64,000 bases of DNA from Stenotrophomonas sp. MMGLT7 (lineage in GTDB: Bacteria > Pseudomonadota > Gammaproteobacteria > Xanthomonadales > Xanthomonadaceae). Each line of letters begins with the position of its first letter. The first letter of the stretch is position 1. Below, piece by piece: positions 43,422 to 64,000 of this stretch. The stretch is taken from NCBI RefSeq assembly GCF_021168555.1, contig NZ_JAJOZS010000003.1, forward strand, positions 62,001 through 126,000. The letters are read 5' to 3'. The translations under genes and the position numbers were made by a program. The notes under the pieces were generated by a model. It had not been told where the DNA came from. It searched no databases and saw nothing but the letters and a program-made list of their open reading frames with translations.

Positions 43422-43439
43422 TGAATGAACGGTCATTCA
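43422..43439. promoter_or_regulatory. Palindromic TetR operator TGAATGA-N4-TCATTCA
   Basis: A perfect 7-4-7 inverted repeat lies 52 bases upstream of the TetR start and 57 bases before the receptor start. Size and symmetry fit a TetR-dimer site, so both the regulator and the receptor operon could be controlled. A related TCATTG follows at about 43444. Confidence 0.7.
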
Positions 43440-43496
43440 TCTGTCATTGTGCACGCACAGACTGCGCCGGCCCCTCACTCCCCGCGAACGAGACCG

Positions 43497-45770
43497 ATGC
43501 GCCACGCCCTGCTGCACCGCCAACTGCTGGCCCTTGCCGTCGCCACCGCCCTGCCGGCCCTCGCCATGGCCGACGACGCCGATACCGCCGACACCGCCGC
43601 CCGCGACGTGGTCGCGCTCGACCAGGTCGTCGTCACCGCGCAGAAACGCGCGACGAACCTGCAGGAGACGCCGATCTCGGTCTCCGTCGTGGATGCCGAG
43701 GCGCTGAAGGATCGCAGCGCGATCTCGATCGGCAGCCTGTCCGACGGTTCGATCCCGTCGCTGCGGGTGACGCCGTTCGCCACCCGCAGCTCCGCGCTGA
43801 ACATCGGCATACGCGGTATCGGGGCCTCCGGCGACGCCAACCAGCCCGCGCGCGACGCCGGCGTGGGCGTATACGTCGATGGCGTGTTCATGGGCCGCGC
43901 GCAGGGCCTGGGCAGCATGCTCTACGACGTGGAGCGCATCGAGGTGCTGAAGGGGCCGCAGGGCACGCTGTTCGGCCGCAACACCGAGGGCGGCGCGATC
44001 AGCATCGTCACCCGGCAGCCCACCGGCGAGTTCGGCGGCAGCGTCAGTGCCGGCGTGTCCAACTACAGCGGCTACAACAGCGGCCTGCACCTGGACCTGC
44101 CCAAGGTGGGCGACGTCAGCTTCAAGATCGATGCGGTGCAGGCCAGGCGCGGCGGCACCACCGACAACCCGATGCGCGGCGAACGCGACTTCAACAGCTA
44201 CGACAAGCGCGGCGCACGGCTGAGCGCGCTGTGGCAGCCCAGCGACGACTTCTCCGCGCTGTACGCGTTCGACCGCTCCTACGACGCCACCACCCCGTAC
44301 CACACGCAGGTGCTGGTGGCAGGCCCGTACCTGAGCCCGCTGCAGCAGGCCGGCGCCAGCGAGGACCGGCGCGGCGCGTCCATCCTGGGCGGCCCGCAGG
44401 AAGACAACATCGGCCGCACCAGCGGCCACCTGCTCAACCTCGGCTGGACGCTCAGCGACAACCTGGAGCTGAAGTCCATCAGTTCCTACCGCGAGCTCAC
44501 CCAGGGCCAGTTCGACATGGGCCTGGTCGATGCGATTTCCGCCTATGGCGGCCCGGGCACCGCCTTCGGCCGCTACAGCCTGGCGCAGGTGTACCAGCAC
44601 CAGTACAGCCAGGAATTCCAGCTGATCGGCAACACCTCGCAGGTGCAGTTCCTGGCCGGCGCCTTCTACTACCACGAGACCGCGGGCGACAACGCGCAGA
44701 CGCCGAACATGCTGCTGTGGGGCCAGGACGGCAACAGCTATACGCTGAACCCGGCGACCAATCCGCTGGACCTGGCCAACGTGCGCATCGATCGCGCCAG
44801 CAAGGCGTGGACCGACAGCCTGGGCATCTTCGGGCAGGCCACCTGGACGCCGGCCTCGCTCGATCGCCTGCACCTGACCGTCGGCGGCCGCTACACCCGC
44901 GACGACAAGAAGGGCAGCCTCTACATGGTCAACGGCGTGGCCACCGATCTCGCCTTCGACGATGCCTGGGGACGCTTCGACCCGATGGTGAACATCGCCT
45001 ACGACCTGGGCGACAGCGCGATGGTGTATGCCAAGTACAGCACCGGCTTCAAGGCCGGCGGCGCCAACTCGCGCTCCACCACCTACACCTCCTTCGCGCC
45101 GGAGGAAGTGACCGCGTTCGAGCTCGGCTTCAAGTCGCAGTTCTGGGACAACCGTGCGCGCCTGAACCTGGCCCTGTTCGACTCGAAGATCGAGCACAAG
45201 CAGATGGACTTCTCGCTGCCGTTCGATCCGGACAGCGGCGAAACCCGCACCACGATGGTCACCACCAACGCGCCCGGCAACGGCACCTCGCGCGGCGCGG
45301 AGCTGGAGTTCAGCGTGATGCCGCTGGACAACCTGACCGTCGGCCTGAACTACGCCTACACCAGGATCGATGCGCAGACCGCCGTCGATCCGTTCGGCGC
45401 CGGCGTGGAAGTCACCGTGCAGCCGCTGCTGGCCCCGAAGAATGCCGGCAGCGTGTCGCTGGACTACCTGGTGCCGTTCGCCGACTTCTCCGCGCTCAAG
45501 TTCCATCTCGACGGCAACTGGTCCGACGGCTTCTACACCAGCGAGTACGACCAGATGCTCACCGACAGTTCGTTCGTGGTGAACGCCCGCGTGGCGCTGA
45601 TCGACGTGCCGCTGAACGACACCGGTTCGACCATCGCCTTCTCGCTGTGGGCGCGCAACCTGCTGGACGAGGAACACCTGTTCTACAAGCTCAACAGCGC
45701 CGCCCTCGGCCAGGCCGGCATCTTCAACGACCCGCGTACCTACGGCCTGGACGTGACCGTCAACTTCTGA
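43497..45770 (+). CDS. TonB-dependent receptor, carbohydrate/other substrate
   Basis: The 757-residue protein has a signal peptide (LAVATALPALAMA), a TonB box (DQVVVTAQK), a plug with the segments TPISVSVVD and IGIRGIG, the DVERIEVLKGPQGTLFGRNTEGGAI motif of FecA/FhuE-type plugs, and a barrel ending in the canonical strand YGLDVTVNF. The receptor is similar to the OAR/iron-complex type, but no loop points to a substrate. It begins a two-gene operon with the exported phosphatase (16-base gap) that a TetR protein probably controls. Confidence 0.9.
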   Translation: MRHALLHRQLLALAVATALPALAMADDADTADTAARDVVALDQVVVTAQKRATNLQETPISVSVVDAEALKDRSAISIGSLSDGSIPSLRVTPFATRSSALNIGIRGIGASGDANQPARDAGVGVYVDGVFMGRAQGLGSMLYDVERIEVLKGPQGTLFGRNTEGGAISIVTRQPTGEFGGSVSAGVSNYSGYNSGLHLDLPKVGDVSFKIDAVQARRGGTTDNPMRGERDFNSYDKRGARLSALWQPSDDFSALYAFDRSYDATTPYHTQVLVAGPYLSPLQQAGASEDRRGASILGGPQEDNIGRTSGHLLNLGWTLSDNLELKSISSYRELTQGQFDMGLVDAISAYGGPGTAFGRYSLAQVYQHQYSQEFQLIGNTSQVQFLAGAFYYHETAGDNAQTPNMLLWGQDGNSYTLNPATNPLDLANVRIDRASKAWTDSLGIFGQATWTPASLDRLHLTVGGRYTRDDKKGSLYMVNGVATDLAFDDAWGRFDPMVNIAYDLGDSAMVYAKYSTGFKAGGANSRSTTYTSFAPEEVTAFELGFKSQFWDNRARLNLALFDSKIEHKQMDFSLPFDPDSGETRTTMVTTNAPGNGTSRGAELEFSVMPLDNLTVGLNYAYTRIDAQTAVDPFGAGVEVTVQPLLAPKNAGSVSLDYLVPFADFSALKFHLDGNWSDGFYTSEYDQMLTDSSFVVNARVALIDVPLNDTGSTIAFSLWARNLLDEEHLFYKLNSAALGQAGIFNDPRTYGLDVTVNF

Positions 45771-45786
45771 CCCCCTGGAGGCTCCG

Positions 45787-46692
45787 ATGAAGAACCGAAG
45801 CACCGCAATCGCACTCGCCTTGTTCCTGGGCCTGCCGATACTGGCCGGCAGCGGCATTGCCCGCGCAGATCTCCCCGCTAACGATGCCACGACCGCAGCG
45901 GCCCGCAGCGGCAACGTGCGGCCGGTGGCCGCCGACGCGCAGCGCCTGGTTCCGCTGCAGGGCGCATGGAACACGCGCAGCTTCGCCGGGCTGCAGGGCA
46001 GCCATGGGCCGATCCCGGCCAGCGCGTTCGTCCGCACCTCGGACCTGGGACGCCTGACCGACGCCGACCGCGACGCGCTGGCAGCCGCCGGGGTGACGCT
46101 GGATATCGACCTGCGTACCGCCGACGAGCAGGCGCAGTCGCCGGACCGGCTGGCCGACGACGATCGCTTCGACTACCAGCGCATCTCGCTCATGGGTACC
46201 GAGAAGATGGACCTGCAGAAGATGATGACGTCCTTCCCGGATTCGCTGGGCGCGGCCTATGTGCAATGGCTCGGCCACAGCCAGCCGCAATTCAAGCAGG
46301 TGTTCCAGCGCATCGCCGCCCAGCGCGACGGCACCGTGCTGTTCCACTGCACCGCGGGCAAGGACCGCACCGGCATCGTCGCCGGGCTGCTGCTGGACCT
46401 GGCGGGCGTGTCCCGCGCGGACATCGTGCACAACTACGCGATCTCCGCGCACTACCTGGAGGACCAGCCCAAGGACAGCGCAATGAACGCGCAGATCATG
46501 GAGCTGGTCAGGCAGAACCCGCAGATCGGGAAGAAGATGGCCGGCATGGCCGGCACCGCGCCGGAGAACATGGAGATGTTCCTGGACGCGCTGCACCGGC
46601 AGTACGGCGGCGCGGAGGGCTACCTCAAGTCCATCGGCATCGACGAGGCCGAAATCCAGCAGCTCAAGGCGCGGCTGGGACAGGCCGGCTGA
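45787..46692 (+). CDS. Exported tyrosine phosphatase (Y_phosphatase3 type)
   Basis: The protein of 301 residues has a signal peptide (MKNRSTAIALALFLGLPILA) and the PF13350-type phosphatase core: RLVPLQGAWNTRSFAG, an Asp-Leu-Arg-Thr (DIDLRT), and the P-loop HCTAGKDRTG near residues 194-203 that binds the phosphate and makes the thiol-phosphate intermediate with its Cys. These enzymes act on phosphotyrosine or on phosphoinositides. It lies 16 bases after the TonB receptor, in one operon, so a periplasmic phosphatase linked to an uptake system is plausible. Confidence 0.9.
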   Translation: MKNRSTAIALALFLGLPILAGSGIARADLPANDATTAAARSGNVRPVAADAQRLVPLQGAWNTRSFAGLQGSHGPIPASAFVRTSDLGRLTDADRDALAAAGVTLDIDLRTADEQAQSPDRLADDDRFDYQRISLMGTEKMDLQKMMTSFPDSLGAAYVQWLGHSQPQFKQVFQRIAAQRDGTVLFHCTAGKDRTGIVAGLLLDLAGVSRADIVHNYAISAHYLEDQPKDSAMNAQIMELVRQNPQIGKKMAGMAGTAPENMEMFLDALHRQYGGAEGYLKSIGIDEAEIQQLKARLGQAG

Positions 46693-46776: not shown

Positions 46777-48858
46777 TCAGCGGGCGGCCGCCGCAATGCT
46801 CGACTTCATCTGCCGCCAGCGCATGTACTGCGCCTTCTTCGCGGGCGCGGCATCCTCGTGGCCCTGCAGCCAGAACCGGAACCAGTCGAGGTTGCGCTCG
46901 TACACCGCCAGCTTGTGCCTGGGCTGGAACTTCTGGTGCGGCTCGTTGGGGAACACGTACAGATCCGCACGCTGCGAGCGCAGCAGCGGAATCTCGTAGT
47001 CCAGCGCGTACAGGTACTCCTGCTCGGAATGCTGGAAGAGGATCGGCGCCCGGATCCTGTCCAGCTTGAATGCCGGCGAGAGCGCCTTCCAGCGCTCCGG
47101 GGTCTCGTCCGGCGCCCCGAGTCCCCACATGTCCCGCAGGCCCTGCACGAAGGCGTCGCCCTTCATGCTGCCGTACAGGTAGTAGGACGGCGACACGACC
47201 GGATTGGCGACCGATGCGGCGGCCAGCAGGCTGGATTCGGTGGCGGTCCACAGCGTCACCGCGCCGCCGAAGCTCAGCCCGCCCATGCCCACGCGGGCCC
47301 GGTCGATCTCGCCCTCCGAGGACAGCAGGTCGACCACGCTCTGCACCGCCGCCAGTCCCTGTCCATGCCGCTCGACCGCATCCAGGGTGTATCCGGGCAA
47401 CTGGTTGATGCATAGCGCGGCGATGCCGGCCTGCGCCAGCGAGGCCAGCGGCCATTCGTCGCCCACCCCGCCGCGCAGGAAGCCCGGGCAGCTGTAGTAG
47501 GTGACGAACAGGGGGGCCGCCGTGCCTGCCTGCCGCCGCGCCGCGTAGAACTGGCCGGTGAACCGCCGCCCCCGGGCGTCGGTCCAGCGCAGCAGCCGCG
47601 CCGGCGCCGCATGCGCCATGTCCAGGGCCAGCGCCGCGTTGGGATCGAACAGCACATGGCGCGCTCCGCCGTCCAGGTCGATCCGCTCCAGCCGCGGCGG
47701 CCGGTCGGCCTCCGCCGTCACGCACACCAGCGCCTGCTCGGAGACGCCGCACCCGGCCGAGGCATCGCGCCCGCCGTTGACCAGCCCCCTGCCCTGCACG
47801 ACCGTGCGCACCTCGCCGGTCTCGACGTTCCAGCGATGGATCGACTGCGCCAGCCCCAGCGCGGGATCGGTGACTGTGAACAGCACCTCGGCGTGGCCGG
47901 GGCGCCACTGGATCGCGGTGATGGGCCGGCCGGTGCACAGTGCCGAGGTGCAGTGCAGCGGCCGCCGCGCACCCGCGCCCGGCAGCACCGACAGCAGCAC
48001 ATCCGGCCGGTACAGTTGCCCGCTGCCGTCGCCGATGCGCGTCAGCACGGCGACCCTGGCGCCGTTCGGTTCGCGCACGGACTTCCAGGGATCGCCCTCG
48101 ACGCCGGCTGCGGGAGCGGCCGGCGACGCCCCGGGAGCGGCCTCGCCCGCGGCCAGCGCCCGCTGCGTCCCCGTCGCCAGGTCCAGCGCCGTCCAGCGGT
48201 CCGGCACGTCGGCCAGCAGCGCGGCGCGATCGAACCACACCGCGCCGAAGCGCTGCGTGGCCAGGCGCCCTTCGGTACTGCCGGAGCGGAACAGGCCCTG
48301 GCCGATCGGCACCGTCGCATCGATGCGGATGCCCTGGTCGTACTCGGCCTGCTCGGCGGCGAGGACCTGCTCGCGGGTGGCACCGACGCTGTACCTGAGC
48401 TCCCGCCCGTCGCGGTCCAGGGCGAAGTCGCGCACGTCCGCGGCGTCGCGCGTCACCGCGGCGGCGCCCGACCCGTCCGCCGCCGCGCGCCACACGGCTA
48501 TCTCGCCGTCGACCAGCGCGCGGTAGTAGATCCAGCGACCGTCGGGCGACCACAGCGCGGTCGCGGGCAAGGCGCCGCCGGCCGAGTCGCGCAGCGGCAC
48601 GCCGCCCTCGGCGACCCGCCTGGGCAGGGGCTCGCCCAGCCCCTGCACGTACCAGACGCTGTCGTAGGTGTTGCGCTCCAGCGACGCCTGCTCGACGCGG
48701 AACGCCACGCTGCGGCCGTCCGGCGAGACGGTCGGAGTGCCGAGATCGACCACTTCCAGCAGCCGTCGCGGCGTGACGTCCTGTGCCTGGCAGACGCTCG
48801 TCCAGCTCGCCGCCAGCGCGCCTGCCGCCAGCAGGCCCCGCACGATGCACTCAGACAT
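46777..48858 (-). CDS. AtxE2-like lasso peptide isopeptidase (S9 family)
   Basis: The 693-residue enzyme has an N-terminal signal region, a beta-propeller (residues about 30-400) and a C-terminal S9 alpha/beta hydrolase domain. The nucleophile is Ser529 in GMGGLSFGG; the acid is probably Glu612 in HSEQEY and the base His641 in NEPHQKF. A Glu in place of the usual Asp, together with this spacing, matches what I remember of AtxE2 (Ser527, Glu610, His638). Such enzymes open the isopeptide bond of a lasso ring. It lies 63 bases after the stop of a TonB receptor gene and ends the unit of sigma factor, FecR, STN protein and receptor. The peptide recognised is unknown. A homologue lies at 63085-64000. 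Confidence 0.85.
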   Translation of the reverse strand: MSECIVRGLLAAGALAASWTSVCQAQDVTPRRLLEVVDLGTPTVSPDGRSVAFRVEQASLERNTYDSVWYVQGLGEPLPRRVAEGGVPLRDSAGGALPATALWSPDGRWIYYRALVDGEIAVWRAAADGSGAAAVTRDAADVRDFALDRDGRELRYSVGATREQVLAAEQAEYDQGIRIDATVPIGQGLFRSGSTEGRLATQRFGAVWFDRAALLADVPDRWTALDLATGTQRALAAGEAAPGASPAAPAAGVEGDPWKSVREPNGARVAVLTRIGDGSGQLYRPDVLLSVLPGAGARRPLHCTSALCTGRPITAIQWRPGHAEVLFTVTDPALGLAQSIHRWNVETGEVRTVVQGRGLVNGGRDASAGCGVSEQALVCVTAEADRPPRLERIDLDGGARHVLFDPNAALALDMAHAAPARLLRWTDARGRRFTGQFYAARRQAGTAAPLFVTYYSCPGFLRGGVGDEWPLASLAQAGIAALCINQLPGYTLDAVERHGQGLAAVQSVVDLLSSEGEIDRARVGMGGLSFGGAVTLWTATESSLLAAASVANPVVSPSYYLYGSMKGDAFVQGLRDMWGLGAPDETPERWKALSPAFKLDRIRAPILFQHSEQEYLYALDYEIPLLRSQRADLYVFPNEPHQKFQPRHKLAVYERNLDWFRFWLQGHEDAAPAKKAQYMRWRQMKSSIAAAAR

Positions 48859-48921
48859 GGGACAGGCACACCTCTCTGCGACGGTCAGGGAACACGGACG
48901 ACGCCGTGCGCGCGGCGGGCA

Positions 48922-51534
48922 TCACCAGTGCTTGGACACGGAAAGGCTGACGAAGCGGCCGATCGCCGAATAGTTGGTCGAGTCGTAGGGCGCCACGTAC
49001 AGCGGCGAGGTGACCGCGTACGACGGCGGGTCGCGATCCAGCGCGTTGTCGATGGACAGGCCGAACTCCAGCCCGGACCAGGCATCGCCGCGCGTACCGG
49101 TGGCATAGCGCAGCGCCGCGTCGAAGGTGGTGAACGAGGCCGACTCGACGCCGTCGACCCGGTTGCTCACCCCGCCGCGGTAGTTGCCGAACAGCGAGCC
49201 GGTGAACCCGCCCTGCCTCCACACGGCGCCGGCGCGGCCGCTCACCCTGGGCGGGTTGAACAGCGTGCCCGCCAGGGCATGGTCCGGCTGGCCCGGGAGG
49301 GTCCGCTGCGTGCTGTCCAGCCAGTTCGCCGCGCCGCGCAGGGTCAGCGAGCCGCCCGCCACCTCGATCCGGTACGACCCGGACAGGTCCACGCCCTGGA
49401 CGTCCTGCCGCGCCACGTTGGCGTACTGCGTGTAGATGATCGCCGCCACCTTGGCCGGGTCGTAGGGCGCGCCGGCGAAGTTGTGGAACGTGCCCGCCGC
49501 GGCGATGACGTCCGCCTGCGCCTGCGTCGTCGGCGCGAGATCGACGAAGGGCGCGTAGATCGCGTTGTTCAGCGCCTGGCTGGAATTGGCGATCGGCTGG
49601 ATCACCCGGTCGCGGTAGTCGATGTGGAACCAGCTCAGCTCGGCCTCCAGGCCGCGCACGGCCTCGGGGTGGTAGGCCAGCGACAGCGAGCGGGTGTCCG
49701 CCCGCTCCGGCTCCAGGTTGCCGTTGCCGCCGTCGAGCACCAGCACGGTCGCATCGGCCGGATAGCCGCTGCCGCCGAAGCTGGCCGGGCCGAACAGCCA
49801 CGCATTGGCCGCGTAGTTGCGCTCGAACAGCGTGGGCGCCTTGAACGACTTGCCCCAGGAGGCCTTCAGGGTGACGTCGGCGTTCGGGCCATAGACCACG
49901 CCGAACTTGGGCGTGGTCACGCCGCCGAAGCTGCTGTAGTCCTCGCCGCGCATCGCGGCGGTGAGCTCCAGGCGCTGCACGCCACGGACCTGCTGCGCGG
50001 GACCGACCAGCGGCAGGTTGAACTCCGCATACGCGAACCGGGCGCTCTCGCTGCCGTCGATCGTCTCGGCGCCGGTGACGTGGTCGACGTTGCGGAACTC
50101 GTTCTTGCGGTAGCCCACGCCGGCCGCCAGCCGCGCATCGCCCGCAGGCAGCGCCAGCAGCGGCCCCTCGGCACCCAGCTCGTAGCTACGGCTGTCGTTG
50201 CAGTAGCACACGTCGGTGACGGCCGCCGCGCCGGTGGCCGTCACCGTCTCCAGCCGGTACTGGTCGTGCTCGCTCCGGCCGGACGTCGCGCCGAGCGACA
50301 GCGTCCAGCCGTGCGGCAGCCAGGCCTCCAGGCTGGGCGAGACCAGCGTGGTCGTGGTCTGCGGCGTGACCCGGCTGTTGCGGCCGCCGATGTTGTACAG
50401 GTGCAGCTGGTCGCGCTCGCTGCGCAGGGCGTCCAGGCGCAGCTCGGCAACCTCGCCCAGCGACTGGTGCGCGCTGATCAGGCCGCTGCGCAGGTCGCTG
50501 CCCGGATACAGCGTCGAGGGATCGACAAGTTGCTCGGCGTAGCGGCGCTGGCGGCTGTAGATGGGATCGACCGAGACGTCCTGGTAGGTGGCGATCAGGC
50601 CGCCGCTGCGCCAGGTGGTGCCGGCGGTGACGGCGTACTCGCGGCTGGCCAGCCCGCCCTGGGTGGCTCGCCCGAAGCGGGTGCCGACGGTCACGCCGTC
50701 GTACTCGCGCTTGAGGATCACGTTGCCGACGCCGCCCACCGCATCGGAGCCGTAGATCGCCGAGGCGCCGTCGGCGACGATCTCGATGCGCTCCACCGCC
50801 TCCACCGGGATCGCACTGATGTCCACCGACTGGGTGAAGCCACCGTAGGCCATGCGGCGCCCGTTGAGCAGGGTCAGGCTGGCATCGGCTCCCAACCCCC
50901 GCAGGTTCAGCCCCGACCCGCCGGTGATGTTCTGGTTGGCGTTGCCGGCACCGGCCAGGTTGCCGCTGAGCACGCCCGGATTCTGTCCGCCGGAGAAGTT
51001 CTGCGGAATGCTGCGCACGACTTCGCCCAGATCGGCGAATCCCTCCTCGCGGATCCGCTCGGCGCCGAGCGCGACCACCGGCGATGGCGTCGAGCCGCCG
51101 CGGATGCGGGTGCCGGTCACGGTGATGGTATCGAGCGTGCTGCTGTCGCCGGCGTTCGCCGCCGCGCCGGGACCGGCCTCGCCCGCCGCCGCGCCATCGC
51201 CGACCGAGATCGTGCTGCCGTTGACCTGGCGAACCGCCAGCCCGCTGCCGGCCAGCATCGCCTGCAAGCCGTCGAGCGTGCCGTAGCTGCCCTGCAACGG
51301 ATGCGTGACGATGCCGGCCACCCGGTCCTGCGAGAACACCAGGGTGATGTCGGCCTGCTCGGCGAAGGCGTTCAGGGCCGCGGCGGCGGGCTGGGCCGGA
51401 ACGTCGAAGCGCCTTGCGGCGCCGGCCTCCTGCGCCTGCGCGCCGGGCATCGCGGCAGCGACACCGAGGGCGACGGCCAGGGCATTGCGGAGGATGTCGT
51501 GCCGGACGTTCTTCATCACGGGATGGCCTTGCAT
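48922..51534 (-). CDS. TonB-dependent receptor with STN domain, lasso-locus type
   Basis: The 870-residue protein has a signal peptide, a secretin/TonB short N-terminal (STN) domain of about residues 42-103 (FDVPAQPAAAALNAFAEQ, ADITLVFSQDRVAG), a TonB-box-like segment (TLDTITVTGTRI), a plug (VVRSIPQNFSGG, LNLRGLGADASLTLLNGRRM, ERIEIVADGASAIYGSDAVGG) and a barrel ending in SLSVSKHW. An STN domain marks receptors that pass a signal to FecR. Together with FecI, FecR and an isopeptidase, this is the usual lasso peptide import set. The ATG at 51534 is used; one at 51516 leaves a typical signal peptide and is equally possible. Confidence 0.88.
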   Translation of the reverse strand: MQGHPVMKNVRHDILRNALAVALGVAAAMPGAQAQEAGAARRFDVPAQPAAAALNAFAEQADITLVFSQDRVAGIVTHPLQGSYGTLDGLQAMLAGSGLAVRQVNGSTISVGDGAAAGEAGPGAAANAGDSSTLDTITVTGTRIRGGSTPSPVVALGAERIREEGFADLGEVVRSIPQNFSGGQNPGVLSGNLAGAGNANQNITGGSGLNLRGLGADASLTLLNGRRMAYGGFTQSVDISAIPVEAVERIEIVADGASAIYGSDAVGGVGNVILKREYDGVTVGTRFGRATQGGLASREYAVTAGTTWRSGGLIATYQDVSVDPIYSRQRRYAEQLVDPSTLYPGSDLRSGLISAHQSLGEVAELRLDALRSERDQLHLYNIGGRNSRVTPQTTTTLVSPSLEAWLPHGWTLSLGATSGRSEHDQYRLETVTATGAAAVTDVCYCNDSRSYELGAEGPLLALPAGDARLAAGVGYRKNEFRNVDHVTGAETIDGSESARFAYAEFNLPLVGPAQQVRGVQRLELTAAMRGEDYSSFGGVTTPKFGVVYGPNADVTLKASWGKSFKAPTLFERNYAANAWLFGPASFGGSGYPADATVLVLDGGNGNLEPERADTRSLSLAYHPEAVRGLEAELSWFHIDYRDRVIQPIANSSQALNNAIYAPFVDLAPTTQAQADVIAAAGTFHNFAGAPYDPAKVAAIIYTQYANVARQDVQGVDLSGSYRIEVAGGSLTLRGAANWLDSTQRTLPGQPDHALAGTLFNPPRVSGRAGAVWRQGGFTGSLFGNYRGGVSNRVDGVESASFTTFDAALRYATGTRGDAWSGLEFGLSIDNALDRDPPSYAVTSPLYVAPYDSTNYSAIGRFVSLSVSKHW

Positions 51535-51657
51535 GGTGGCGTTGTCTCCGCGGAGCTGGATTCGGGTTCCCGGCATCGCACCGGTTCAGTCATGGAGACG
51601 GGCCATGCGTGCGTTTCCGCCACTCCCACCCGCAGCTTGCTCCGGGCCAGACTGCGG

Positions 51658-51987
51658 CTACGGCATGCAGCTCGCGCGCGGACAGATCAGGTAGGTCCCG
51701 TCGCGCGCCCGCCGGTAGCCGAGCCGGGTTCCAGCGAGCAGCAGCGTCAACCCGCGATCCACCGTGTAGCGTCCCCTCAGCGCGTGCGTGCGGTCGTCGG
51801 CGACCAGGTCGTAGGAGAAGATCAGCGTGATGTCCGCCTGCCGGGCGAACGCGTTCAATGCCGGCCCCGCCGCCTGCGCGGGAATGTCGAACCGCACGTC
51901 GGCCGCGGCGGTGGGCGCGCACGCCGCCAGCAACAGGGGCAGCGCCAGCCGCGAGAATACGCGCGAGAGTGCAACGGCGGTTTCCAT
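51658..51987 (-). CDS. Stand-alone STN-domain protein
   Basis: The 109-residue product has an export signal with a lipobox-like LLLAAC, then a single STN domain (FDIPAQAAGPALNAFARQ, ADITLIFSYDLVADDRTHAL) that is closely similar to the STN domain at the start of the receptor downstream. It is not fused to a barrel and lies between FecR (131-base gap) and the receptor (123-base gap). It may be a decoy or a relay in the signal from receptor to FecR. No similar free-standing gene in such loci is known to me. Confidence 0.85.
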   Translation of the reverse strand: METAVALSRVFSRLALPLLLAACAPTAAADVRFDIPAQAAGPALNAFARQADITLIFSYDLVADDRTHALRGRYTVDRGLTLLLAGTRLGYRRARDGTYLICPRASCMP

Positions 51988-52118
51988 CCGGCCAGCTCAT
52001 CCAGGGAGGCGGCGCCAAGGCGCCGGTCACTGGTAGACGGGAGCCGGGGCGTTTTCCGCCATTGCGCCGCCGCGCCGGTGCCGGCCCGTGCGTGCCCGCC
52101 CGCGCCACGACAGGCGGG

Positions 52119-53189
52119 TCACTGGCGTGTCGATGACGTGGAGGCCCGCGCCTGCAGGTAGACCAGGTGATCGGACGTGCGATGCACGGTGATCGGGAAC
52201 GCGTTGGTCAGCGCCTCCAGGAAGCCGTCCACGTCGCCGGTGCGGAAGCGCCCGCCCACGCGCAGGTCCTGGATGCTGGCGTCGGCCACGACCAGCCGCG
52301 TATCCGTGTAGCGGTTCAGTTCGGCGATGGCCCGCACCAGCGGCTCGCCCTCGAAGACGATGGCGCCCTCGCGCCAAGCCAGCGCATTGGAGACGCTCGC
52401 CGGGGCGATCGTGGCCACCGGCGAAGCGGCGGCCGCCTCGAAGCGCTGCCCGGCGCCCAGCTCGCTCGGCGCAACGGCGCCGGACCCGGGCCCGGCGGCG
52501 GTCTTGGCCGGCGAGCCCGCCTGCGATGTGACCTCCACCCTGCCCTCGGTGACGATGACTTCCACGTCGCGGCTGTCGCGCAGGCGCACGTTGAACTCGG
52601 TGCCGACCGCGCGCACCACGGTATCGCCGGCCTGCACGAAGAACGGGCGTTCGCCGTCGTGTGCCACCTTGAACAAGGCTTCGCCCTTCTCCAGCTGGAT
52701 GACGCGCCTGCCACGGCTGAAATGCGTCTCCAGGATGGTGTTGGTATTGAGCTGGACCACCGAGCCATCGGCCAGCGCGACGCTGCGCTGCTGCCCCACC
52801 GCCGTGGCCAGCGTCTGCGACTCGCTGCCGTGCTGGTACCAGGACAGGCTGCCGGCCACCACCGCCACCGAGGCGGCCATCGCCCACGGCACCAGCTTGC
52901 GCAGCCTGCTGCGCATCGGCTTCGGCGCGGCCCTGGCGTACAGGCGACGTTCCTCGGCCACGAAGGTGGCGACCTTTTCCTCGCGCTTGGCCTCGGCCAG
53001 TTCGTCCAGCGACTGCCACACGCCGCCCAGTTCCTCGAACGCGCGGCGATGGCGCGGATCGCGCCGCAGCCATTGCTCGAATTCGACCCGCACCTCGGGG
53101 GCCACGTCCTCGTCGTCCAGCCGCCACACCCAGGCCGCGGCTTCCTCTTCCAGCTCGGCCAGGCTGCGGAACTTCAGCACGTCGCTCAT
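52119..53189 (-). CDS. FecR-type anti-sigma/sigma-regulatory protein
   Basis: The 356-residue protein has an N-terminal cytoplasmic DUF4880 part (EEEAAAWVWRLDDEDVAPEV, then WLRRDPRHRRAFEEL), one membrane helix (about residues 99-118), a FecR domain (SVALADGSVVQLNTNTILET) and a C-terminal DUF4974-like part (VRAIAELNRYTDTRLVVAD). It binds the sigma factor encoded just before it and the STN domain of the receptor in the periplasm. Its start overlaps the stop of the sigma gene by four bases (ATGA). Confidence 0.93.
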   Translation of the reverse strand: MSDVLKFRSLAELEEEAAAWVWRLDDEDVAPEVRVEFEQWLRRDPRHRRAFEELGGVWQSLDELAEAKREEKVATFVAEERRLYARAAPKPMRSRLRKLVPWAMAASVAVVAGSLSWYQHGSESQTLATAVGQQRSVALADGSVVQLNTNTILETHFSRGRRVIQLEKGEALFKVAHDGERPFFVQAGDTVVRAVGTEFNVRLRDSRDVEVIVTEGRVEVTSQAGSPAKTAAGPGSGAVAPSELGAGQRFEAAAASPVATIAPASVSNALAWREGAIVFEGEPLVRAIAELNRYTDTRLVVADASIQDLRVGGRFRTGDVDGFLEALTNAFPITVHRTSDHLVYLQARASTSSTRQ

Positions 53190-53770
53190 CGGCCGTCTCC
53201 TTCGTCCCTGCGCCGGCGCGCCGGGCGGCCCTCGCCCATCGATGCGACATCGCCCGACAGGCCATGGTCGCGCAGGTGGTCCCGGCACCGCACCAGGCCC
53301 TTGGCGACATGCTTCTCGATGGTGCTCTGCGAGATGCCCAGCACCGCACCGATCTCCGCCTGCGACAACTTGTAGACCTTCCTCAACACGAACACGCGCC
53401 GGCAGATCGGCGGCAAGCTGTCCACCGCCGAACAGAACGCCTCGAACCGACGGCGCGCATCCAGCTGCTCTTCGAGCTGGGGGCCATCGGAAGAGACGCC
53501 CAACGCATCGAAATCCGCCACCGCATCGGTGGCGCGGCTGACCCGGCGGCGGCCCAGCTCGACCGCCAGGTTGTGGGCGATGGTGATCAGCAGCGCCTTG
53601 GGCGACTCGACCGCGGCGTAGTCCTGGATGCCGTAGATGCGCAGGTACGTGTCCTGGATGACGTCCTCGATGTCCTCGGCGGAGTTCAGGTACTTGCGCA
53701 GGTACTGCTGCAGCATCTGCCGATGGCAGAACACCTGGTTGAGGAACCATTCGTGGCGGTCGGACGACAT
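53186..53770 (-). CDS. FecI-type ECF sigma factor
   Basis: The protein of 194 residues has region 2 (LQQYLRKYLNSAEDIEDVIQ then DTYLRIYGIQDYAAVESPKALLI) and region 4 (LPPICRRVFVLRKVYKLSQAEIGAVLGISQSTIEKHVAKGL), the pattern of iron-starvation ECF sigma factors. It should direct transcription of the receptor unit when the substrate is bound. The start at 53770 (MSSDRHEWFL) fits the family N-terminus better than an ATG upstream. It is the first gene of the unit. Confidence 0.93.
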   Translation of the reverse strand: MSSDRHEWFLNQVFCHRQMLQQYLRKYLNSAEDIEDVIQDTYLRIYGIQDYAAVESPKALLITIAHNLAVELGRRRVSRATDAVADFDALGVSSDGPQLEEQLDARRRFEAFCSAVDSLPPICRRVFVLRKVYKLSQAEIGAVLGISQSTIEKHVAKGLVRCRDHLRDHGLSGDVASMGEGRPARRRRDEGDGR

Positions 53771-59617: not shown

Positions 59618-60247
59618 ATGAGTGCCACCCACTCCAAGAATGAATTGCTGTACAGGCAGGTCAGGCGCGCCCTGCAATCGGGTCGCTACGTCCCAGGGCA
59701 ACGGATAGACCCAGCCACGCTCGCCACGGAATTCGACACCAGCACCACGCCCGTCCGCTTCGCCCTGTATCGCCTGGTCGGCGAAGGCCTGGTCGCCGAT
59801 CATGCCCGCAACGGGTTGCACGTCCCACTGCTCACCGAAGTCGCCATGCGCGACCTCTACGACTGGATGCAGCGCCTGCTGCTGATGGCATGCGACATCG
59901 GCTTCGCATCGACGGCCCGGAAAACCACACAACCGGAGTTGGCCCCCACCGACGACGATGTGGTGAAGCTGACCTGGAAGCTGTTCGATGCGATCGCCCG
60001 CGCTACCTCCCATCGATCCCTGCACCGTGCCGTGAAGCAGGCCAACGGCCGGCTGGCGCCGATACGGCGGGCCAAGCAGGAGCTGATCGAGAACGCCTGC
60101 GAAGAGCTTTCGGCACTGGACCGGCATTGGCAGGCCCGCGACATCCCGGCCCTCAGATCCGCATTACGCGACTATCACGAACGCCGCAAGCAACTCGTCC
60201 CGCGCATCGTGGCCGCGCTGAGCGACGGCAGCGACTACCTCCACTAG
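59618..60247 (+). CDS. GntR-family (FadR-like) regulator of the lasso cluster
   Basis: The 209-residue protein has a GntR winged helix (LYRQVRRALQSGRYVPGQRI then DPATLATEFDTSTTPVRFALYRLVGEGLVA) and a C-terminal helical domain of the FCD type (DLYDWMQRLLLMACDIGFAS). It lies 224 bases before the precursor gene on the same strand, and an interrupted palindrome sits between the predicted promoter and the precursor start. It probably controls the cluster in response to a small ligand. Which ligand is unknown. Confidence 0.88.
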   Translation: MSATHSKNELLYRQVRRALQSGRYVPGQRIDPATLATEFDTSTTPVRFALYRLVGEGLVADHARNGLHVPLLTEVAMRDLYDWMQRLLLMACDIGFASTARKTTQPELAPTDDDVVKLTWKLFDAIARATSHRSLHRAVKQANGRLAPIRRAKQELIENACEELSALDRHWQARDIPALRSALRDYHERRKQLVPRIVAALSDGSDYLH

Positions 60248-60397
60248 CAACACGCCCCTCGGCCAGCGACGCTCCGGCCGCCCGGCCGATACGGTTGGCG
60301 CCTGGCTGGCGTCTCCGGCTGCGCCGCACCTGAATCCGGCATTGCACGACAAGCATCACAGTCCCAGACAATCAACAGATTACAGCCGAATAATCAT

Positions 60398-60427
60398 TTG
60401 AAAACAAAAAGTCCTGCTTCCTACGCT
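60398..60427 (+). promoter_or_regulatory. Predicted promoter of the lasso precursor gene
   Basis: A TTGAAA (60398-60403) and TACGCT (60422-60427) are separated by 18 bases in the middle of an A/T-rich patch. They resemble -35 and -10 boxes of the sigma-70 type. They lie 45 to 74 bases before the precursor ATG. Assigned by eye. Confidence 0.5.
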
Positions 60428-60434
60428 GCGCCTG

Positions 60435-60451
60435 TCATGGGACGTCCATGA
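60435..60451. promoter_or_regulatory. Interrupted palindrome TCATGG-GACGT-CCATGA (candidate GntR operator)
   Basis: Six-base arms TCATGG and CCATGA flank a five-base spacer, right after the predicted -10 box, where bound repressor would block transcription. Its 6-5-6 arrangement fits a dimeric winged-helix regulator such as the GntR protein encoded upstream. A stem-loop in the leader RNA is an alternative. Confidence 0.5.
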
Positions 60452-60471
60452 CGCAACCGAAGGAGACAGCG

Positions 60472-60612
60472 ATGGATACGAACCAGAACACCCGCACCAA
60501 CACGGCGGAAGACCTGATCGTGCTTGGCGTCGCCAGCGTCGAGACGAAAGGACAGATGGGCATCACCGAGAACTTCGGCGCCGTTCCCCTCGACGGCATT
60601 TCCGATGCATGA
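60472..60612 (+). CDS. Lasso peptide precursor (predicted 7-residue Gly1-Glu7 ring)
   Basis: This 46-residue gene starts after an AAGGAGA site (60458-60464). The leader (26 residues) ends LGVASVETK with a Thr at position -2, the conserved residue of lasso leaders. The predicted core is GQMGITENFGAVPLDGISDA: Gly27 supplies the amino group, and Glu33, residue seven of the core, is the only acidic residue before Asp41, so the ring should have seven residues. Phe35 (core 9) is a candidate plug. Seven-residue rings are known from xanthomonins. The C-terminal GISDA may be trimmed. Its stop overlaps the start of the B gene. Confidence 0.9.
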   Translation: MDTNQNTRTNTAEDLIVLGVASVETKGQMGITENFGAVPLDGISDA

Positions 60613-61337
60613 CCAACCAGGTGCGCCGAAAGGCGCACCTCTTGGCAGGTATGAAGAAGATGATGCCTCTCAAACTGCATGACGACCTGTCGTACTGCAA
60701 AGTCGATGGAAACCTGATCTTCCTCGACATCCAGAACGATCGCTACTTTCGGTTATCGACCGATCTGGAGTCGTGTTTCGTCAATTATCTGGAAGGCGAT
60801 GACGGCTCGCACCGTGCAATCCAGAGACTGATCGAACATCGGATCCTGATCGGCGCGGCGACCGACGCAGGCCGAATCCCTGTATCGCTGCCAGGAAGTC
60901 CAACACGCAGCGCAATGGAAGAACAGGTATCCACCCATCGCACGAGCATCAGCGAAGTCCTGGACACTTTCGCGATTGTCTGCTCGACACAGCTGTTGCT
61001 GAAAACCCGCAGGCTGAAGCATGTCCTCGCCCGACTCGCCTCCTATCGTGAGAAACGAGTGCCTCAAGCCTTGATCTCTCATCAAGACAAGTCACGCACG
61101 CTGGATGCTACCGCTGCCTTCCGCAGCACACGCCCGTACGTCCCGATCGACACGTGCTGCCTGCTCGACTCAATCGCGCTGGTCAAGTTCCTGGCCAAGC
61201 GCGAGCTTGCAGCGAAGCTCGTCTTTGGCGTTACTGCAACCCCATTCTCGGCGCACTGTTGGGCGCAATACGAAACCACGGTGCTCAACGACACCGTGGG
61301 ACATGTACTCGCTCATACGCCAATCCGGGTGATCTGA
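60609..61337 (+). CDS. Lasso peptide B protein (RRE + transglutaminase-like protease)
   Basis: The 242-residue protein has an N-terminal RiPP recognition element (PqqD-like; KLHDDLSYCKVDGNLIFLDI, then QNDRYFRLSTDLES) that binds the leader, and a C-terminal transglutaminase-like protease that removes it. The catalytic residues are probably Cys184 in DTCCLLDS, His216 in FSAHCWAQ and Asp228 in LNDTV, equivalent to the McjB triad. The start at 60609 overlaps the precursor stop as ATGA; an internal ATG at 60651 would remove an unconserved lead. Its stop overlaps the cyclase start by one base. Confidence 0.92.
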   Translation: MTNQVRRKAHLLAGMKKMMPLKLHDDLSYCKVDGNLIFLDIQNDRYFRLSTDLESCFVNYLEGDDGSHRAIQRLIEHRILIGAATDAGRIPVSLPGSPTRSAMEEQVSTHRTSISEVLDTFAIVCSTQLLLKTRRLKHVLARLASYREKRVPQALISHQDKSRTLDATAAFRSTRPYVPIDTCCLLDSIALVKFLAKRELAAKLVFGVTATPFSAHCWAQYETTVLNDTVGHVLAHTPIRVI

Positions 61338-63088
61338 TGTGCGGCGACTACATCGCAATTCTGGGCCACGGCATGGCAGAGATCGTGGCACCCGCTTCTC
61401 CGCTGGCTGACATACTCGGCACCATGAGCACATATGTCCGTTATGCATCGGACACGATGGTATTGTTCTGCGGGGAGGACGTTTCGACGCTATCTCTACC
61501 TGACGGCAGCATTCTCCTCGGCAGCCTCTTCACCCGCGACGGAATTTCCCTGGATGAGGAAGCAGGACTGCCAGCGCTCACCAGCCAGGCTGCAACCCGG
61601 CAACACATCATCGAGAAATGCTGGGGTTCCTATCTTCTGATCCAGCCCGACATGGAGGGTTCCGGCGAGCTCACGATAACCCGTTCTCCAGCCGCTGCCG
61701 GCGCTCTCCCATGCATCTACTCGATCAGGAATGGATCTGGATTCCTGACATCCGACATCTCCCTGGCAGTCCAAGCCAACCTCTATCGGAAGCGGATCGA
61801 CTGGGATTTCATGATCCGCCGCCTGAAGCATCCACATATCAAAATGCAGCGCACCGCATTGGCCGAAGTCGCCGAACTTCTGCCCGGATGCTCGTTGAGC
61901 CTGCATGGCACCACTCCCCTCTCTATCGACCAAGCGTGGTCTCCTTGGCACTTCGTCATTCCCGAACGTCGTCAATGCGACCCGCGCGAGGCAGCAGCTC
62001 GGATTCGTCATGCCGTCGCAAGTTCCATTCACGCATGGGCGGCCACGGACAGGGCGATCTTGCTGGAGCTTTCCGGCGGGCTGGACTCGTCCATCGTTGC
62101 CGCCGGCCTGAGCGACTGCCATGCACGCGTCACCTGCTGCAACCTGGCAACCCCTGTTCCGGGCGTGGACGAGCGGCATTACGCGGGACTGATGGCCAGC
62201 CAACTCGGCACCGGACTTCACACCGAGCAATTGGATCTCGACCGGGCACGCCTCGATTTCGACATATCTGCCTCTTCCGTCGCCCCTGGCATGGGACCGC
62301 TGCAGTACGCCATCGACCGGACGATGGAGGATCTTGCCGAACGACATGGGGCCACTGCTTACTACTCGGGAGGCGGGGGAGATTCCGTGTTCTGCTATCT
62401 ACGAACTGCTGCACCCGCTGCCGATGCGTTCAGAGCACGAGGGCTGGGAGACGCGATCACCGCGGCCAAGGACTTGTCCAGCCTGCACCAATGCACACTC
62501 TGGAAGGCTGGCCGCCTGACGCTATCCAAGCTGAGGCGGCCACCGACGTCGCCTTATCGCGAGGATGCCACGTTCATCGCACCAGGGACGGCCAGCACCA
62601 GCCCGGAGCCACATCCATGGTTCGCTGCTCCTGACGACGCGCTGCCGGGAGACAGGGAGCGAATCTTCGACCTGGCGGGGAACCAGCTCTTCCAAGACCA
62701 AGCCGCACGGGGCTCCAAGCGTCCCCTGCGTTTTCCGTTGCTATCCCAACCTGTAATGGAAGCCTGCCTCCAGGCACCCAGTTGGATGTGGATTTCCGGG
62801 GGCAGGAATCGTGCGCTTGCAAGAGATGCGTTCTCCGACACCCTGCCTTCCGAAATCGTGAACCGCCAAAGCAAGGCCACGTACATGAGCTACCTGGGCG
62901 CTGTGTACGAAAGAAGCAAGCATGAAATCTCGGACTTTCTGCTCTCCGGCCGACTCCAGTCCCAAGGCCTCCTGGACAGGCGCGCCATTGCCGCCTTCCT
63001 GGCGACGCCGCTGGCGCCACGAGATCAAACCTTCCTCAGGATGTTCGATCTCTGCATGGTCGAGAACTGGGTACGCCATCAGCCCTAG
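61337..63088 (+). CDS. Lasso peptide cyclase C (asparagine-synthetase-like)
   Basis: The 583-residue enzyme activates the ring acid as an AMP ester and forms the isopeptide bond. It has the ATP-pyrophosphatase loop LSGGLDSS (Ser246-Ser252) and the later SGGGGDS (from residue 344), plus an N-terminal glutaminase-like domain that here still begins Met-Cys-Gly, the start in which Cys is the nucleophile of true asparagine synthetases; most lasso cyclases lack it. The start at 61337 (MCGDYIAILG) overlaps the B stop by one base (TGATG). The gene runs tail to tail with the isopeptidase, and their stop codons overlap. Confidence 0.93.
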   Translation: MCGDYIAILGHGMAEIVAPASPLADILGTMSTYVRYASDTMVLFCGEDVSTLSLPDGSILLGSLFTRDGISLDEEAGLPALTSQAATRQHIIEKCWGSYLLIQPDMEGSGELTITRSPAAAGALPCIYSIRNGSGFLTSDISLAVQANLYRKRIDWDFMIRRLKHPHIKMQRTALAEVAELLPGCSLSLHGTTPLSIDQAWSPWHFVIPERRQCDPREAAARIRHAVASSIHAWAATDRAILLELSGGLDSSIVAAGLSDCHARVTCCNLATPVPGVDERHYAGLMASQLGTGLHTEQLDLDRARLDFDISASSVAPGMGPLQYAIDRTMEDLAERHGATAYYSGGGGDSVFCYLRTAAPAADAFRARGLGDAITAAKDLSSLHQCTLWKAGRLTLSKLRRPPTSPYREDATFIAPGTASTSPEPHPWFAAPDDALPGDRERIFDLAGNQLFQDQAARGSKRPLRFPLLSQPVMEACLQAPSWMWISGGRNRALARDAFSDTLPSEIVNRQSKATYMSYLGAVYERSKHEISDFLLSGRLQSQGLLDRRAIAAFLATPLAPRDQTFLRMFDLCMVENWVRHQP

Positions 63089-64000
63089 CGGACTTTGCGC
63101 GTACCGTGCATGGCTTCTCGCATCACGCGCCAAATGGCGTATTGGGGCGCCTTTCCTGGGTTCGGATCCTCCAGGCCCAGCAACCAGAACCGGAACCAGT
63201 CCAGGTTGCGCTCATACACGGCAAGCTTGTGTCGCGGCTGGAACTTGTTGTGAGGTTCATGGGGAAAGACATAGACGTCCGCCTTGCTGCTCCGCATGAG
63301 CGGAATGGCGTAGTCGAGTCCATGCATGTATTCCTGCTCCGGGAGCTGCAGCAGGATGGGGGCACCGATCATCCCCAGGTTCAAGGTCGGTGAAATCCGT
63401 TGCCACTGCGATGGCGTTTCGTCCAGCGTACCCAGTTGCCAGTTCCCCCGCATCAGTGACAAGAAGGGGTCGCCGATATTGCTGCCCAGCAGGTGATACA
63501 GCGGCGAGGTAGTAGGTGATGCCATTGATGCGGCCGCGAGTACGTCGGAATGGATCAGCGTCCACATCGTCACTTCACTGCCGAAGCTGATGCCACCCAT
63601 GCCTATCCTGGCCTTGTCGATACGCCCTTCCGAGGCGAGCCGCTCGATCACGCTTTCAACCGCTGAAAGGCCGAGATCGTAGCGCTCGCCGGCATCGGCA
63701 GGGAACGAAGGAGCGTTGATGCATAGAGTAGAAATCCCCTGCTCTGCCAGAGTGGCCAGCGGCCACTCATCACCTGATCCTCCCCGCGTAAAGCCCATGC
63801 ACCGGTAGTAGGTCACGAACAGGGCCGGCGGTGTGTCGCCGGTCGGGCGTGCCGGGTAGAGCTGCCCCGAGAAATACCTCCCCTTCGCATCCGTCCAACG
63901 AAGCAGTTGCGTCGGGATCCCGGAAAGATCGTGGGTCAGGCTTGCATTGGGATCGAACAAGACTTGGCGCGCCCCCGTCTGCAGATCGACCCTTTCCAGC
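63085..64000 (-). CDS. Lasso peptide isopeptidase, second copy (cut by the right edge)
   Basis: The visible 304 residues are the C-terminal S9 hydrolase domain: GMGGISFGSEV holds the nucleophile Ser, LPEQEYMHGLDYAIPL the probable Glu, and HEPHNKFQPRHKLAVYERNL the His. The chain is a clear homologue of the isopeptidase at 46777-48858, sharing the run QPRHKLAVYERNLDWFRFWL and the final residues. In the same frame, LERVDLQTGARQVLFDPNAS extends to the edge, so the gene continues beyond the window. It most likely opens the lasso made by the adjacent A-B-C genes. Confidence 0.85.
   Translation of the reverse strand, partial: LERVDLQTGARQVLFDPNASLTHDLSGIPTQLLRWTDAKGRYFSGQLYPARPTGDTPPALFVTYYRCMGFTRGGSGDEWPLATLAEQGISTLCINAPSFPADAGERYDLGLSAVESVIERLASEGRIDKARIGMGGISFGSEVTMWTLIHSDVLAAASMASPTTSPLYHLLGSNIGDPFLSLMRGNWQLGTLDETPSQWQRISPTLNLGMIGAPILLQLPEQEYMHGLDYAIPLMRSSKADVYVFPHEPHNKFQPRHKLAVYERNLDWFRFWLLGLEDPNPGKAPQYAIWRVMREAMHGTRKVR

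Follow-up and report, generated by a model that had tools for sequence, protein, structure and literature searches.

Why does a genome that encodes the biosynthesis of a single lasso peptide carry two lasso isopeptidases, one of them set apart from the biosynthetic genes? The question is raised by the window, the whole 64,000-nucleotide stretch of Stenotrophomonas DNA that was analysed. It contains a lasso peptide cluster at its 3' end and, about 6 kb upstream on the minus strand, an orphan module (46777-53770) of FecI, FecR, a TonB-dependent receptor with an STN domain and an isopeptidase, which is devoid of A, B and C genes (Table 1). The genome (4.27 Mb, 99.9% complete; the only one of its genus in the collection) harbors one B gene, one precursor of the family and two isopeptidases; a single PF24178 match was obtained, and no second precursor or cluster was found in the genome. 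Its family, the Xanthomonadaceae, also includes the genomes that encode xanthomonin precursors. The best explanation, which we consider probable, is that the bacterium possesses its own A-B-C/E1-T1 lasso cluster and, in addition, a separate module that only receives a foreign xanthomonin-type peptide. The gene content, the protein families, their relationships and the lack of a second B or precursor gene of this family were read from the sequence.

Table 1. Features of the lasso peptide cluster and of the orphan module. Coordinates refer to the window unless another stretch is named.
Feature	Position	Strand	Basis or remark
E2, second lasso isopeptidase, orphan	46777..48858	-	NF033523 667.5 bits; in the clade of xanthomonin-cluster isopeptidases
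T2, TonB-dependent receptor with STN signalling domain	48922..51576	-	Pfam barrel and plug above cut-off
FecR-type anti-sigma regulator	52119..53189	-	Pfam FecR 77.9 bits
Putative FecI-type ECF sigma factor	53186..53770	-	ORF and homology to FecI of other orphan modules
GntR-family regulator	59618..60247	+	Pfam GntR 44.1 bits; 5' of A in nearly all related clusters
Precursor A, lasso (46 aa)	60472..60612	+	Pfam Subterisin and NCBIfam benenodin above cut-off; alignment with six relatives
A-B intergenic stem-loop, AGGTGCGCC-GAAA-GGCGCACCT	60619..60640	none	Conserved, covarying
B protein, RRE-leader peptidase fusion	60660..61337	+	lasso_biosyn_B2; AlphaFold2 fold; start from relatives
C protein (583 aa), lasso cyclase of asparagine-synthetase-like type	61337..63088	+	Pfam; alignment with relatives
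E1, AtxE2-family lasso isopeptidase	63085..64000, continuing beyond the window to about 65166	-	Convergent with C; 3' end at 63085 abuts C
T1, TonB-dependent receptor	L002:11221-13632, outside the window		After E1

The precursor A scored well above the cut-offs of the Pfam model Subterisin (46.6 bits, cut-off 27) and the NCBIfam model for benenodin-family lasso peptides (42.2 bits, cut-off 33). Its leader (60472-60549) and its core of 20 residues (60550-60609) read MDTNQNTRTNTAEDLIVLGVASVETK~GQMGITENFGAVPLDGISDA, with a Thr at position -2, a Gly at the start of the core and an acidic residue (D/E) within positions 7 to 9. The open reading frame, the leader ending in Thr-Lys, the core and Glu7 as the sole acid before Asp15 are as given in the preliminary description. 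Glu7 is the only D/E at positions 7 to 9, and the sequence permits ring closure at Glu7 only. The mass of the cyclised core, calculated by hand as about 1972.9 Da, was recomputed as 1972.92 (monoisotopic; [M+2H]2+ 987.467).

An alignment of seven precursors of the subgroup revealed that Glu7 is invariant and that no acid is present at position 8 or 9, and the B protein falls into a large clade, which includes the xanthomonin clusters and in which nearly all cores are able to close at residue 7. The reading of A-B-C as a lasso cluster for a peptide with a predicted Gly1-Glu7 ring is therefore well supported; ring closure and threading are predicted properties of the product. The product might instead be a branched or linear peptide or a lasso closed elsewhere. 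However, we consider such a product very improbable, since the remaining acids of the core, Asp15 and Asp19, lie outside the known ring sizes of 7 to 9, and both the invariance of Glu7 and the position of the B protein among the xanthomonin clusters, whose seven-residue ring was reportedly established experimentally by Hegemann et al. in 2014, argue for closure at Glu7. Phe9 had been proposed to act as the plug. This candidate is doubtful and was rejected: when the core is aligned without gaps to the xanthomonins of 20 residues, Phe9 is located two residues past the ring, at the start of the loop. Phe9 is probably part of the loop, and the plug is more likely to be found near Val12-Leu14.

The preliminary description had further presented the core as new. 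This is correct for the exact sequence, for which a literature text search gave zero matches; the kind, however, is already known, as six relatives share the pattern GxxGxxExFGxxPxxGISxA, which recurs in Rhodanobacter and Oleiagrimonas, and a near relative, StcA, has been published. The core starts with GQMGITEN and hence does not belong to the GGPLAGEE type, but to a separate ENFG subgroup. Seven residues had also been named as the rarest ring size, which does not apply to this lineage. With B, PF24178 and the alignment of the subgroup as queries, 67 distinct cores of relatives were collected, and 37 of them possess a Glu at position 7 as the only acid in this region. The others carry acids at positions 7 and 8 (18 cores, xanthomonin type), at 8 only (nine), at 7 and 9 (two) or at 7, 8 and 9 (one). 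The core GVLPIGNEFMGHAATPGITE, which has an acid at position 8 only and was recovered by the same search, is presumably identical to rhodanodin, a known peptide with an eight-residue ring. When mapped onto a tree of 67 B proteins, the ring classes proved to be strongly clustered (9 changes versus 26.3 when shuffled), and the B protein of the window groups with those of Rhodanobacter, Oleiagrimonas and genome G018 (clade support 100/95). The cluster adds one more predicted lasso peptide with a seven-residue ring. In the set of cores obtained from the order, this ring size is the commonest, and its link to the B protein is inherited.

The biosynthetic genes had been described as arranged in the order A-B-C with end-to-start overlaps. 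The order was confirmed, as was the overlap between B and C, in which the B stop and the C start share base 61337. The overlap between A and B, however, was rejected as an artefact of taking the first ATG: ATG 60609 is the start of the open frame only, and B likely starts at ATG 60660 or 60663, since the B proteins of relatives (MTQLRLHxDLS...) begin just past a stem-loop located between the two genes. In two relatives (L004 and L007), a TAA occupies the position of the would-be overlapping ATG. The stem-loop is present between A and B in every cluster examined. An alignment of 13 copies showed pairing in each of the 117 cells and changes on both sides in four of the nine pairs, whereas a control with slid partners gave at most one pair changing on both sides; no match was found in Rfam. 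The element probably acts on the A message, either as an attenuator or as a stabiliser. In several relatives, a T run follows 3' of the stem, which makes a partial terminator favouring A over B and C likely; the stem-loop would thereby probably hold the expression of A above that of B and C. Higher yields have been obtained when the A-B region was replaced (PMC7549694).

The B protein scored 67.3 bits with lasso_biosyn_B2 (cut-off 33). No relative was found in the PDB by sequence, and the RRE is evident by fold only: the AlphaFold2 model (pLDDT 81.4) has the lasso RRE TbiB1 (5v1v) as its best PDB match (Foldseek E 0.05, probability 1.00). The C-terminal half is a transglutaminase-like peptidase; B thus combines an RRE with a peptidase and would cut the leader off after Thr-Lys. 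The B gene of Rhodanobacter glycinis MO64 (L007:8001-8710) contains an in-frame stop, which is possibly a frameshift or a sequencing error. The C protein reached 107.6 bits with Pfam Asn_synthase (cut-off 21) and stayed below the cut-off of the NCBIfam lasso cyclase model; its name is derived from the Pfam match, its position and its relatives. Together with the family matches of A and B, the Pfam match of C bears out the earlier assignment as a lasso cluster. Cys2 of C was considered as a working glutaminase site and rejected; it is not conserved in relatives and therefore probably occurs by chance.

The GntR gene and the convergent isopeptidase and TonB-dependent receptor genes had been missed in the preliminary description. 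The full-length E1 (L002) scored 626.8 bits with NF033523 (cut-off 400), and its Ser/Glu/His triad aligns with that of AtxE2 (5txc, E 1e-44), which identifies E1 as a lasso isopeptidase. With a GntR gene before A and a TonB-dependent receptor beside the isopeptidase, the region from 59618 to 63088 and onward is, judged by its gene content, an isopeptidase-type lasso cluster. About 50 related loci, the xanthomonin clusters among them, share this arrangement of GntR-A-B-C converging on E-T, and it matches the constant architecture published for isopeptidase clusters (PMC9266682). No exporter gene was found beside the cluster and no sigma/anti-sigma pair beside T1 in the scanned stretch (L002); most relatives in the order also lack the pair. 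The assignment alters the function to be expected, as isopeptidase-type lasso peptides mostly have no antimicrobial activity and their role has been called enigmatic (PMC9266682). The bacterium's own peptide would re-enter via T1 and then be opened by E1. Beyond the receptor gene (L002:17540-19238), ORFs for a DNA cytosine methyltransferase-like protein and a Vsr-like endonuclease were named by eye.

The proteins of the orphan module are related to those of another group of lasso clusters. The identity of E2 amounts to 78% with the isopeptidase from a xanthomonin-type cluster in genome G186 and to 73-75% with those of Xanthomonas, but to only 57% with E1; T2 shares 83% identity with the G186 receptor, 78-79% with the Xanthomonas receptors and 60% with T1. 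Trees place both proteins in the xanthomonin clade (support 97/91 for E2 and 100/99 for T2). The STN domain of T2 gave a weak Pfam match (21.2 bits, cut-off 28.4) and was confirmed with a local profile. On the plus strand (43425-46692), another TonB-dependent receptor gene and a tyrosine-phosphatase-like gene are convergent with E2.

The nesting of E2 and T2 among xanthomonin-cluster proteins would also be expected if the module were what is left of a once complete xanthomonin-type cluster, from which GntR-A-B-C have disappeared and which is now decaying. Furthermore, FecI and a degenerate FecR are present in some Xanthomonas clusters, so that the ancestor may have had both. Nevertheless, we regard decay as unlikely, since all four genes are intact, the catalytic triad of E2 is retained and a search for B or C remnants near E2 found none.

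Comparable modules occur in other genomes. Isopeptidases above the cut-off were found in at least 47 of 397 genomes of the family sample and in at least 19 of 198 genomes of the Rhodanobacteraceae sample, these counts being lower bounds because scoring was limited to the top 3 or 5 candidates of each genome; three genomes (G060, G333 and G362) have such an isopeptidase but no B match. Fourteen orphan modules from seven genomes, including five of Rhodanobacter sp. B05, were compared with 54 biosynthetic clusters. An intact FecR is encoded by all 14 modules versus two of the clusters (Fisher 1e-12), and an STN domain is found in all 14 versus ten clusters (Fisher 1.6e-8), both values being optimistic as rows are related. 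Rhodanobacter sp. B05 (G533; L195-L197, C16:145995-189000) contains five modules in tandem within about 35 kb, located beside one lasso cluster; the isopeptidases of the array share 47-67% identity among themselves, and such arrays are hard to see as a product of decay, which further argues against a remnant. At least three complete modules in tandem were found in genome G391 (L146, L198 and L199; C4:61000-97000), the last isopeptidase of which is divergent. A search of the literature, outside of which most subscription journals lie, found no published work on orphan lasso isopeptidase modules.

In the isopeptidase tree, the orphan proteins branch at several places among those of clusters rather than in a single clade. 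Two observations count against the reception of foreign peptides. The lineages of orphan isopeptidases and receptors agree only modestly (mean rho 0.21 versus 0.02 for mismatched pairs, p 0.014), and in two B05 modules, the receptors are 80% identical to an ENFG-type receptor of R. glycinis and the isopeptidases come from elsewhere, so that receptors of orphan modules may have recombined. In xanthomonin clusters of Xanthomonas (L164, L167, L169 and L171), an intact-looking FecI gene is accompanied by a FecR match that is degenerate and scores about 40 bits, which points to an ancestral sigma/anti-sigma pair that was lost from most clusters and has been kept by the orphan modules. An ancestral pair may be no mark of foreign sensing; its retention by the orphan modules fits a sensing role without proving it.

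A receptor with an STN domain, acting together with FecR and FecI, is the usual route for sensing an outside ligand. This route, and the finding that tested isopeptidases open the peptide of their own cluster only (PMC9266682), led us to read E2 and T2 as devoted to a foreign peptide: the module would most likely be the receiving half only, responsible for the detection, import and opening of a peptide of the xanthomonin type made by neighbouring bacteria. The STN-FecR-FecI relay would turn the module on in the presence of such a ligand; uptake, ligand identity and signalling are predicted steps of this scheme. E2 and T2 could also serve the bacterium's own peptide, either in reserve or as a copy under different regulation. 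The module is located close to the cluster, the B05 array directly adjoins its cluster, and isopeptidases recognise the shape of the loop more than the sequence (PMC9266682), all of which would suit this role. However, it is rather improbable in view of the own-cluster specificity of the tested enzymes, the lower identity of E2 to E1 than to the xanthomonin-cluster isopeptidases and the orphan modules of G060, G333 and G362, for which no B gene was found at all. A receiving function for a foreign peptide is our preferred reading of the module in the window. By extension, standalone FecI-FecR-TonB(STN)-isopeptidase modules might generally be dedicated to the detection, import and opening of the lasso peptides of others, with the one in the window used for a xanthomonin-type peptide and five in tandem in B05; we put this forward tentatively, as a proposal whose chances fall slightly short of even. 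If true, isopeptidase-type lasso peptides would be public goods or signals that are shared or stolen in a siderophore-like manner. Genomes with the receiving but not the making half offer a direct test of the purpose of isopeptidase-type lasso peptides.

Among known systems, xanthomonins I-III of Xanthomonas share with the peptide of the window a core of 20 residues, closure at Glu7 (predicted here) and, as had been recognised before, a GIS near the C-terminus; the GntR-A-B-C/E-T architecture is common to both, and their B proteins form one clade. In contrast, xanthomonin cores start with GGPLAGEE and have an additional acid at position 8, and their clusters encode two precursors, whereas the cluster of the window has one precursor, other ring residues and no acid at position 8. 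StcA of Stenotrophomonas acidaminiphila, a precursor with a predicted seven-residue ring published in 2015, shares the leader motif IVLGVASVET, the predicted ring closed at Glu7 and the GIS tail (PMC4675943); its core, GILQGNEPMGGEPVPGISEE, is different, and both StcA and the peptide of the window are predictions only. Clusters of the benenodin/subterisin type (astexin, sphingopyxin, caulonodin) likewise have a GntR gene before A, an isopeptidase, a TonB-dependent receptor and no adjoining ABC exporter; the cluster of the window differs in that it has no adjoining FecI/FecR, the pair being located in the separate orphan module. The orphan module itself resembles the FecI-FecR-TonB loci that serve the siderophores of other species, which combine a sigma factor, an anti-sigma factor and an STN receptor without biosynthesis of the ligand. 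In the window, however, the receptor has a lasso isopeptidase as its partner, and the predicted ligand is a lasso peptide.
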